A stretch of 64,000 nt of DNA from Meiothermus ruber DSM 1279. GTDB taxonomy: Bacteria > Deinococcota > Deinococci > Deinococcales > Thermaceae. The stretch is taken from the NCBI RefSeq assembly GCF_000024425.1, contig NC_013946.1, forward strand, positions 2,728,001-2,792,000, written 5' to 3'. A model generated the notes under the pieces. It was not told the origin of the DNA and did no database searches. It saw only the letters and a program-made list of their open reading frames with translations. The position numbers were made by a program, and so were the translations under genes. Below are positions 8,213-18,805 of the stretch, piece by piece. Within the stretch, counting starts at the first letter, position 1, and each line of letters starts with the position of its first letter.

Positions 8213-9307
8213 ATGGGATTGATCAGCGAATACCTCTCGGCGGCGCTGCGGCAGGCCCGCTACAAACCAAGCGAGGGTGGGTTTATCGAGGCCAGCGTGC
8301 CGGGCCTGGCCGGCGTGATGGTGCGGGGGCGCACCTTTGAGGAGTGCCGCGAACGCTTACAGGACGAACTCGAGCTCTACCTGGCCCGCACCCTGCTGGC
8401 CCACGAGGCCCTGCCGGAGATACCGGGGGCCTCCAACGCCCTGCAGACCCTGGCCCTGGAGATTCACCCCGGCGCCAGCCTGGTCGAGCAGACCATTCTC
8501 CAGACCGCGCGCACCATCCTGGAAGAAGTGCGGCTGCTGCGGCGCGGCGGCGGAAGCCCGGAAAAACCACGAACCCCGGAGGCCCGGCGGCCCTCTTTCC
8601 GCATCTCCGAGTACGTGCAGGAAGCCGGGCTGGGGCTTCAGCCGAGCCAGAATGGCCTGACCGAGGCCGAGGAAAAAATCTTCGAGCGCGTGAGCGGTTT
8701 CCTGGGCGAGCGCTACGGCTCGCTCGAGGGCCTCTACCAGAAGCTCAAGGCCGCCACCCAGAAGGACAACGGCGAGTTCCAGTACTCGCTGGCCTCGCTC
8801 AGCCAGCAGGACATCGGCATCAACACCCAGTTGTGCACCCTGCTCAAGGAGGGGGGGCTGCTCAAGAGCTACACCTACAGCCCCAAGCAGCGCCGCATTT
8901 ATGGCCGCCTGGCCGACGATGGCAAGACCCGCGGCCTGATCACGGGGGGCTGGCTCGAGCGCTACGCCCGCCAGGTGGTGCAGCTCACCCTGCGGCGGCG
9001 CAACATCCCCCACGACCTGCTCCTGAACCCGGTGCTGCTCTATCCCAACGGCGACCGCTTCGAGGTAGACCTGCTGCTGCGCACCCCGCAGCTCTTCCTG
9101 CTCCTGGAGTGCAAGACCGGGGGCTACGAGGAGAACCTCGAGCGCCACCAGCGCATCGCCGCCGACCTGCGCATTCCCGCCAAGCAGGTGCTGTACCTGC
9201 TCCTGGGCGTGCCCGAGGCCGTGCTGGATGAGCTAAGCCGCCAGTGGGGCTTTACCTTCGTCAACGAAAAAACCCTATCCGAGCGGCTCGAGCGCCTGCT
9301 GGGCTAA
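8213..9307 (+). CDS. HicB-like N-terminal domain fused to a Card1/Can2-like PD-(D/E)XK nuclease domain
   Basis: A 364-residue multidomain protein I could not match to a named family as a whole. Residues about 14-70 resemble the HicB antitoxin partial RNase-H fold (ASVPGLAGVMVRGRTFEEC, then ELELYL). Residues about 150-235 look like a winged-helix region. Residues 243-335 resemble the nuclease of CRISPR-linked Card1/Can2 (DUF1887) proteins: GGWLERYARQ (245-254), Asp286 in FEVDLLL, and Glu299/Lys301 in LLLECKTGG, the D...ExK active site. No CARF sensor is visible; the HicB-like region occupies its place. The start is uncertain. ATG 8213 is one base from GGAAGG (8206-8211), while TTG 8219 has a better 7-base spacing. 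No HicA toxin lies next to it. Confidence 0.72.
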   Translation: MGLISEYLSAALRQARYKPSEGGFIEASVPGLAGVMVRGRTFEECRERLQDELELYLARTLLAHEALPEIPGASNALQTLALEIHPGASLVEQTILQTARTILEEVRLLRRGGGSPEKPRTPEARRPSFRISEYVQEAGLGLQPSQNGLTEAEEKIFERVSGFLGERYGSLEGLYQKLKAATQKDNGEFQYSLASLSQQDIGINTQLCTLLKEGGLLKSYTYSPKQRRIYGRLADDGKTRGLITGGWLERYARQVVQLTLRRRNIPHDLLLNPVLLYPNGDRFEVDLLLRTPQLFLLLECKTGGYEENLERHQRIAADLRIPAKQVLYLLLGVPEAVLDELSRQWGFTFVNEKTLSERLERLLG

Positions 9308-10575: not shown

Positions 10576-10752
10576 GAAAGGTACAAAGAGTTTTTGAAGT
10601 TGTTGAACGAACATGAGGTGGAGTTGGCGGATACGCGGTCGGGCACTGTTGCCGCATACCGCGTTTTCCCGCTCGAACAGCTATTTCGCTTCTCGCGGGG
10701 GCTCCATGACAAGCAAAAATCAGAGGTGGAGAGCTTGCCAGCGCAGCCTTGC

Positions 10753-10758
10753 TACAAT
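10753..10758 (+). promoter_or_regulatory. -10 box for leaderless transcription of mntA
   Basis: TACAAT lies exactly 6 bases before GTG 10765, so a transcript starting about 7 bases downstream would begin at the start codon. This supports GTG 10765 as the true start. The 189 bases between carA and this start have an open reading frame in phase but no recognisable domain. Confidence 0.55.
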
Positions 10759-10764
10759 GATGTT

Positions 10765-11052
10765 GTGAAGCTCTCGGAGCTGGAAAATATCCTAAAAAAC
10801 CACCGGGCTGAGCTCGATACCTTTGGCGTCAGGCGGCTTTATGTGGTGGGCTCTGTGGCTAGAGGGGAAGCACGGCCCGGCAGCGATGTTGATTTTGTGG
10901 TTGAACTCGAGCGCTACACGTTGCGTGATTTTGTAGGGCTCAAGCTGGCCCTCGAGGACTGGCTTGGTATGGCTGTTGATCTAGCTACCCTAAGAAGCCT
11001 CAAACCCCAGCTTCGTAAGGAGCTCGAGGGAGACATGAAGCGTGTCGCGTAG
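10765..11052 (+). CDS. mntA: Minimal nucleotidyltransferase, MntA-type antitoxin
   Basis: A 95-residue minimal nucleotidyltransferase with the motif [16 protein letters not shown] (residues 29-44); Gly29-Ser30 and Asp41/Asp43 form the expected GSX10DXD metal site. In characterised HepT-MntA systems this protein silences the HEPN toxin by transferring AMP to a tyrosine near its active site. An upstream in-frame TTG (10594) would add 57 residues without domain similarity; the GTG with a leaderless -10 box is preferred. It overlaps the toxin gene by 11 bases, normal for these pairs. Confidence 0.88.
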
Positions 11053-11389
11053 GCTAGATCTGTACTTTCAGGACATTCTCGAGGCTACTGCCCGCATTCG
11101 TCGCTATACCCAGGGTCTGGTCTTCGAGGATTTTGATCAAAATGAGCTGGTTCTAGATGCATGTATTCGCAATTTTTTGGTCATAGGTGAAGCGGTTAAG
11201 CAAATCCCAGACGAGTTGCGTCTCCAGCAGCCCGAAATCCCGTGGCGCCTGATTGCGGGAATGCGAGATGTGCTGGTTCATGCCTATTTCTCCACGGATA
11301 GCCGGGTGCTTTGGGACGTGATTGAGAATGAACTCGAGCCTCTAGAACAGGCTATTGGAAAGATGCTCGCCAATGAGGCTTCCGAGTAG
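11042..11389 (+). CDS. hepT: HEPN-domain toxin, HepT (DUF86) family
   Basis: A 115-residue all-helical HEPN protein. The RNase motif RX4HXY is seen as Arg75-DVLV-His80-Ala-Tyr82 in [11 protein letters not shown], the hallmark of HepT toxins; Tyr82 is the residue AMPylated by MntA in studied systems. The start is GTG 11042, inside the 3' end of mntA. Together the two genes form a type VII toxin-antitoxin module. It stands alone, with no defence genes nearby other than the nuclease fusion at 8.2 kb. Confidence 0.9.
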
Positions 11390-16997: not shown

Positions 16998-17644
16998 ATG
17001 AATTTTGAAGGCTTGTTGGAGGCTGCTCACAACGTCGTCCGATCCCTTAGCAGGCCCTGGGATGACCGTCTCAATGTCATTCTGCGCTACTGCGTAGATC
17101 ACGGGGCTTTCCCCAAGATCGGCAGGCTAAGCCCGGAAGGCGAGGATTTGCCCACTTATTTGAAGCTTTACATTACGCGCTATTATGGGGCTCGAGAGCA
17201 ACGCCTGGAATTTCGCGCTGTTGGAACCACCCCTGATCCCGCTGTGGACGTGATTCTCCAGGCATTTATCGGTCTAAGCGATCTATCGGTTGTGTCAGAG
17301 CATCACCGCCAGTCGATGGCGGCGGAAAACCTGCTAGGCCTGCTGCTCGAACGCTACATCGCCGAGCAGCTTGAGCCGCAGGGCTGGGTATGGTGCGCTG
17401 GCAATACCGTGCGTTCGGTTGACTTCCTGTCTGGCGACCTCAGTACTGCGCTGCAGGTCAAGAATCGAGACAACAGCGAAAATAGCTCTTCTTCTGCTAT
17501 CCGCCAGGGTACTTCCATCAAGAAGTGGCATCGCATCAATTCGAAAACGGGCAAAACCAATTGGCCCAGTTTCCCCGTTAAGTAATCTTAAGCGAAGAAG
17601 GCTTTCATCGCTATATTGAAGCTTACGCAAATAGCCTACAATAG
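16998..17644 (+). pseudogene. SinI-family type II restriction endonuclease, frameshifted near its 3' end
   Basis: The reading frame from ATG 16998 gives 195 residues ending at TAA 17583-17585. It resembles R.SinI (a GGWCC-cutting enzyme family): AAENLLGLLLERYIA, GWVWCAGNTVRSVDF and a QVKNRDNSENSSSSAIRQG stretch rich in conserved Lys/Asn/Ser. The natural C terminus appears in another frame right after the stop: VILSEEGFHRYIEAYANSLQ, ending at TAG 17642-17644. One added base at the AA of 17580-17581 would join them into a 215-residue protein. The truncation removes about 20 residues, so activity may be lost. The restored stop lies 4 bases before the methyltransferase start, as expected for an intact pair. 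A sequencing error is the main alternative. Confidence 0.78.
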
Positions 17645-17648
17645 AGTC

Positions 17649-18805
17649 GTGCGTAACCTATCGCATATTTCTCTGTTCTCCGGGGCGATGGGTCTGGATC
17701 TGGGCTTGGAGCAGACAGGTTTCATTACGCAGGTTTTGGTTGAGCTAGACCCGATAGCTCGCCAAACCATTCAGCACAATCTCAGGCGCCTTGGTCGCAC
17801 AGCAGCCATTTTTGAGGACGTAACGCAGGTAACCGCAGAGATGCTGCTCGAGGCCGCTGGCCTGCGCATAGGCGAGGTTACCCTCATTTCCGGTGGCCCC
17901 CCTGTCAACCCTTCAGCACAGCAGGGCGCCGGGCGGCTATACAGGATCCTCGAGGGAGCCTATTTCGAGACTTCGTTCGTCTTATCGAGGGGGTGCGGCC
18001 CCGCTTCTTTGTGATGGAGAATGTGCGGGGTTTACTGTCCGCGGCCATTCGCCACCGCCCCATCAAGGAGCGGGGAAAAGGAGCTCCTCCTTACGAGCCC
18101 GATGAGCTTCCCGGCTCAGCCTTTCAGGTCATCCTCGCGGAGTTTGATCGCCTTGGTTATTCCTATGTGTACGGCCTGCTCAATGCGGCCGACTATGGTG
18201 TGCCTCAGGTGCGCGAGCGAGTGATTATTATTGGTAGTCGAGACCACGAGCCTATTGCCCTGCCCCAACCTACCCACCACAAAGATGGTCTGCACTTACC
18301 CCGCTGGCGCACAGTACGCGAGGCCTGGGATGGTTTAGACGACCCATCTCCAGAGTATCCACCTTACCCCGAGTCGCGGTTACGTTTTTTGCGCCCGGTT
18401 CCTGAGGGGGGCAACTGGCGCGATCTGCCTCCGGAGCTTTGGCCCGAAGCCATGGGTGGGGCGTTTACCTCTGGGGGTGGAAAAGTGGGCTTCTATCGCC
18501 GGCTGGCCTGGGACAAGCCGGCCCCTACCGTCACTACAAGCCCTGCACAAAAAGCTACCGACATGTGCCACCCCTCCGAGCTACGGCCCATCAGCGTCCG
18601 CGAAGCAGCCCGGCTGCAAGGTTTTCCCGACAATTGGCTGTTTTGTGGCTCAATGGCAGATCGCTATCGACAAATTGGCAACGCCGTTCCAGTGGGCCTG
18701 GGTAAAGCCATCGGCGAGAGCATTGTGGCAACCATGCGGGGGGAATCACGAACCACCATCCGGCAGGGCCGTCTGTTCGAATTGGCGGGCAAACCCAGCT
18801 CTTAA
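17649..18805 (+). pseudogene. C5-cytosine DNA methyltransferase of the SinI-like system, frameshifted in motif IV
   Basis: The gene starts at GTG 17649, with TACAAT (17637-17642) 6 bases upstream. Motif I is ISLFSGAMGLDLGLE. The first frame then reads ISGGPPVNPS, where every C5 methyltransferase has GGPPCQ. After the run of six C (17897-17902) the next frame reads CQPFSTAGRR and continues to VRPRFFVMENVRG (motif VI), VRERVIIIG (motif VIII) and the RQIGNAVPVGLGKAI motif X, ending at 18805. A missing C (seven to six) therefore splits an otherwise complete 385-residue enzyme exactly before its catalytic Cys. As written, no functional methyltransferase can be made without frameshifting. It converges on ilvA with a 4-base overlap. 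Confidence 0.88.

Follow-up and report, generated by a model that had tools for sequence, protein, structure and literature searches.

The window, which is the whole 64-kb stretch of DNA analysed here, belongs to the 3.10-Mb, single-contig genome of Meiothermus ruber, of which Meiothermus sp. KatS3mg071 is an identical relative. One open reading frame in it is a genuine fusion of a HicB-like domain with a Card1/Can2-type nuclease. It stands where the earlier note had placed it, with argG-GNAT-argH-GNAT upstream and carA downstream. Its parts are as follows:

8213..9307, + strand: whole gene, 364 aa, HicB-like domain, linker and Card1/Can2-type nuclease (open reading frame with ATG start; AlphaFold2 mean pLDDT 86.7)
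8213..8428, + strand: HicB-like (UPF0150) domain, residues 1-72, predicted alpha-beta-beta-beta-alpha (Pfam PF21748, E 7.5e-13; Foldseek 2dsy, TM 0.81; pLDDT about 80-93)
8429..8593, + strand: linker, helical then disordered, residues 73-127 (pLDDT <50 at 85-88 and 107-125; in most pairs the least conserved part)
8594..9304, + strand: complete nuclease domain of Card1/Can2 type, residues 128-364 (Card1, Can2, Cdn1 and VC1899 matched by profile and by fold; pLDDT mostly >90)
8945..8959, + strand: GGWLE motif, residues 245-249 (G245, W247 and E249 invariant in sets of 11, 32 and 21 sequences)
9062..9070, + strand: E284-x-D286, invariant, equivalent to E276/D278 of SthCan2 according to the alignment with chain 7bdv
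9107..9115, + strand: E299-x-K301 (ExK motif), invariant, equivalent to E291/K293 of SthCan2 when aligned with 7bdv and 6wxw

About 40 genomes share this architecture, which excludes a chance origin of the fusion. Promoter and terminator scans were uninformative. Elsewhere in the window, an MntA-HepT-like pair (nucleotidyltransferase and HepT-like RNase, 10594-11389) lies directly downstream of carA and occurs only in some relatives. A type II restriction enzyme adjoins a cytosine methyltransferase at 16998-18802, with no counterpart seen in the relative locus L063; the methyltransferase reads as two overlapping frames (17616-18011 and 17993-18802) and is possibly frameshifted.

The HicB-like N terminus, which the earlier note had proposed from the letters alone, was confirmed by both profile and structure. 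Residues 6-68 match UPF0150/HicB of Pfam (48.6 bits; cut-off 27.3), and the modelled N terminus was matched by Foldseek to TTHA0281 (rmsd 2.0 A) and, weakly, to HicB of B. pseudomallei (6g1c). The single match in a PHROGs search was weak and fell in the HicB region; no NCBIfam family matched the 364-aa protein. A genome search for HicA found none near the fusion in M. ruber, as the note had also held. The sole match lies 2 Mb away beside its own 72-aa hicB, and the conserved neighbours of the fusion at the Thermus loci include no gene recognised as hicA. An obligate HicA partner was rejected on the evidence of this distant, already paired hicA. The same evidence makes an odd HicAB system highly improbable, in which the HicB domain would bind a HicA toxin in trans and the nuclease would help to destroy HicA targets, although the genome does hold one hicA.

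For the C-terminal part, Pfam Card1_endonuc stayed below its cut-off with the single fusion sequence (E 0.028), and the PADLOC profile CARF4-PDDEXK matched residues 128-308 with an E value of 7.7e-7. A core profile built from nine sequences over residues 128-364 was compared with all PDB sequences, and values below 1e-4 were returned for the Card1/Can2 group only: Cdn1 (8z4i), Card1 (6wxw, 6xl1), Can2 (7bdv) and VC1899 (1xmx), at 6.7e-6 to 8.1e-5. The AlphaFold2 model, a single chain predicted from 32 sequences with a largely disordered linker at 85-125, gave Foldseek matches to 1xmx (2e-11), Cdn1 (6.8e-10), Can2 (1.3e-7) and Card1 (6e-6). Thus both ends of the protein have the structural likeness that had been predicted for them, to HicB folds and to Card1-group PD-(D/E)XK nucleases. 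Within the nuclease domain, residues 150-235 show a winged-helix-like order of elements.

The residues read in the earlier note as a catalytic pattern (G245-G-W-L-E249, D286 and E299-C-K301) were correct, and E284 can be added. No substitution of G245, W247, E249, E284, D286, E299 or K301 occurs among 32 family members with identity down to 22%; in the wider set of relatives described below, D286 is invariant and E284 nearly so. In SthCan2, the E276A/D278A double mutant served as the nuclease-dead control, and TsuCan2 E302A/K304A, likewise a nuclease-dead control, was reported inactive (PMC7969007). The match of invariant E284, D286, E299 and K301 to these mutated positions was counted in favor of a catalytically intact nuclease. 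Selection points the same way: dN/dS (NG86, six species pairs) is 0.10-0.24 for the whole gene, 0.03-0.2 for the HicB part and 0.06-0.22 for the nuclease part, indicating that neither part is decaying. A decayed, enzymatically dead CARF nuclease could account for the sub-cut-off Pfam score of single sequences, but with no variation at any catalytic residue and purifying selection acting on the domain, this explanation is very unlikely.

The absence of a CARF domain also proved correct. SthCan2 consists of a CARF domain (3-151) and a nuclease domain (166-366) (PMC7969007); by these limits, the fusion protein has the entire nuclease domain and none of CARF. Residues 1-127 gave no Pfam CARF match and consist of UPF0150 and the linker, in contrast to the true CARF member L071, which scores 57 bits against CARF_Card1. 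Without CARF, the protein has no cyclic oligoadenylate (cOA) site. No CRISPR repeat array was found within the 64-kb window. Elsewhere in the M. ruber genome, a sub-threshold CARF_Card1-like match (E 0.03) lies at G000:C1:200305-200532 inside a 406-aa ORF.

Of 111 Deinococcota genomes, 51 gave a match. The HicB-nuclease fusion itself is present in all 27 Thermus genomes (frame-split or fragmentary in two of them), in 7 of 18 Meiothermus genomes, and in further genera of the same family and a sister family. Its position is fixed per genus. The Meiothermus and Calidithermus copies follow the second GNAT gene after argH and precede carA; in each of the nine Thermus loci read, the gene is flanked by tRNA-Leu(TAA) and murJ and shares about 10 bases with murJ. 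In both groups hisD stands a few kb upstream, which suggests a single ancestral place of the gene. A link to arginine metabolism was considered and rejected, and with it any tie to the carbamoyl-phosphate genes, as the neighbours differ in Thermus and the gene is cleanly absent from other Meiothermus. In ten Meiothermus genomes carA directly follows the GNAT gene and nothing evidently takes the place of the fusion there; genome G033 holds a decayed HicB remnant at this site and an intact copy on another contig. This clean presence or absence fits an accessory function, and the gene is accessory, not essential, in Meiothermus. Relatives were found in none of 50,697 phage records, 72,556 plasmids or viral contigs, in agreement with the earlier remark that signs of mobile elements are missing. 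The fusion is an ordinary chromosomal gene that is vertically inherited in Thermaceae and sometimes lost.

These observations bear directly on the main rival explanation, which is that the protein is a housekeeping nuclease for DNA processing or repair in Thermaceae, comparable to EndoMS/NucS in other organisms. Such an enzyme would be constitutively competent and take its selectivity from DNA structure, and its HicB-like domain (a partial RNase H-like fold) would be a binding platform for nucleic acid or a partner protein instead of an off-switch. Its presence in 27/27 Thermus genomes at a single constant site that overlaps murJ, vertical inheritance, strong purifying selection, the lack of plasmid or phage relatives among those searched, and the resemblance of the Can2 nuclease domain to EndoMS (PMC7969007) agree with this explanation. 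However, the ten Meiothermus genomes do without the gene and show no evident replacement, the gene of T. parvatiensis is split by a frameshift (L043:9686-10698), and relatives occur only sporadically in other phyla, which is not the pattern of a core repair gene. A housekeeping role is thus possible but somewhat unlikely.

We defined a CARF-less Card1-type core family by a match to the core profile, the invariant catalytic set and the lack of CARF; the fusion has all three properties. Scans of genome contigs, cyanobacteria and Chloroflexota (the phylum of L054) with the core profile found such proteins in 25 of 291 cyanobacterial and 4 of 301 Chloroflexota genomes. Their partners are a short N-terminal coiled coil, a membrane helix with coiled coil, or C-terminal extensions, and a further form joins an N-terminal region of about 500 residues to a C-terminal FGE-sulfatase domain. 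Cyanobacterial proteins L095, L096 and L093 are of the last form, exceeding 1000 aa with the core in mid-protein; no Pfam family matched their N-terminal region. FGE domains have been reported in cyanobacterial conflict systems (PMC7159879). A TIR fold at the N terminus of L054/L062 (TIR_2, E 0.039) is not claimed, as pLDDT of the model there is about 35-60. No HicB fusion outside Deinococcota appeared in the loci fetched.

A tree was built from 71 cores and rooted with two true CARF-Card1 proteins (a small and distant outgroup). In it, all 21 HicB rows fall into a single clade (SH-aLRT 88) nested among CARF-less rows. This nesting, with moderate tree support, indicates that HicB was probably joined in a single event to a nuclease already without CARF. 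The earlier note had seen a HicB-like fold standing in the place of CARF; this holds for the domain order, as HicB is at the N terminus and CARF is missing, but not for a straight swap in a Card1 gene, since the fusion belongs to a broader lineage of nucleases that lack CARF and have other partners. M. ruber also has a paralogue (L002; G000:C1:855885-856589) with a short N-terminal coiled coil and no HicB, adjoining a dGTPase-like gene. It falls in another clade, next to closely similar genes of Gloeomargaritales (a cyanobacterium) and Spirochaetia, and has probably moved by horizontal transfer, judging from this placement.

Taking the evidence together, we give roughly even chances to the reading that the fusion is a HicB-dimerised, HicB-gated, metal-dependent nuclease that serves as a resident accessory effector of defence or stress and responds to a signal other than cOA. 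Its dimerisation, gating, substrate, trigger and defence role are all inferred. The nuclease would be a catalytically intact, metal-dependent PD-(D/E)XK enzyme of Card1/Can2 fold working without cyclic oligoadenylate. It would most likely act as a homodimer, as in Can2, with the cleft between the two nuclease domains cutting nucleic acid, either by nicking DNA or by cleaving single-stranded RNA or DNA, or both. HicB domains oligomerise and bind proteins in HicAB systems. Here, the HicB-like N terminus may fill the structural role of CARF in Can2 by pairing the subunits, and may keep the nuclease off until a protein or nucleic acid signal of infection or stress binds it. The earlier note had likewise suggested HicB as a gate, or as a binder of DNA or of a toxin; these roles are putative. 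Two observations on the core relatives were counted for this reading: their exchangeable N-terminal modules, a pattern usual for regulated effectors, and a CARF-less gene on a Chloroflexota contig (L046:41-2674) that has a CRISPR array of 16 repeats some 110 bases away and RT and cas1 downstream. Against it, no partner gene is conserved between genera at the fusion loci, the locus is outside a defence island, and near-universality in Thermus is unusual for a phage-defence gene.

A one-protein toxin-antitoxin system was also weighed, in which HicB, as a cis-antitoxin, would directly inhibit the fused nuclease, with release by an infection signal, as in CapRel; the nuclease would be toxic without HicB. 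HicB is an antitoxin fold, and both fused HicA-HicB and the fused toxin-antitoxin protein CapRel provide precedents (PMC10865869). At L058:9320-11305, moreover, an unfused CARF-less core gene is immediately preceded by a HicB-HTH gene, with no hicA, inside a toxin-antitoxin cluster; a FitA/VapC-like pair lies downstream. But L058 stands alone as an example and its UPF0150 match is weak (E 9e-4), HicB normally blocks HicA, which has a different fold, and the long linker, disordered in the model, gives no evidence for a fixed contact. This system therefore appears doubtful.

A search of open-access papers gave no earlier description of HicB-fused or CARF-less Card1-type nucleases. The fusion is thus one case of a wider and apparently undescribed group of CARF-less Card1-type nucleases with exchangeable front ends. 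The conservation of this branch with several N-terminal modules implies that the nuclease is a general effector cassette. Tentatively, the group may be a widespread family freed from CRISPR cyclic-oligonucleotide signalling and fitted with exchangeable sensors, of which the Thermaceae form would be a single-protein immune or stress switch, an antitoxin fold gating a CRISPR-type nuclease. The fusion offers a thermostable, tractable protein (orthologues of T. scotoductus, T. brockianus and M. taiwanensis) for studying switching without cOA, and the orphan HicB/UPF0150 fold gains a possible role other than blocking HicA.

Compared with known systems, the fusion resembles CapRel and fused HicAB proteins (PMC10865869) in joining a regulatory antitoxin-type domain and an effector in one chain; its effector fold is unrelated to theirs and its gating is putative. 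HicB antitoxins and single-domain UPF0150 proteins such as TTHA0281 share the N-terminal domain by Pfam and fold, whereas the fusion has no adjacent hicA and no HTH or RHH domain, and carries a nuclease. The CARF-less proteins of cyanobacteria, Chloroflexota and others share the core at roughly 22-42% identity together with the catalytic residues, but bear coiled-coil, TM or other N-termini. VC1899, the top Foldseek match, is a protein of Card1 fold that is not activated by cA4 (PMC7969007); unlike the fusion, it retains its CARF domain. Can2/Card1 is known as a cA4-activated effector of type III CRISPR. With these CARF-PD-(D/E)XK nucleases (DUF1887, PF09002), the fusion shares the fold and the complete nuclease domain with its ExD...ExK and GxWxE residues, but it is flanked by arginine genes and carA, or by tRNA-Leu and murJ, instead of type III CRISPR genes, and its N terminus is HicB-like instead of CARF.
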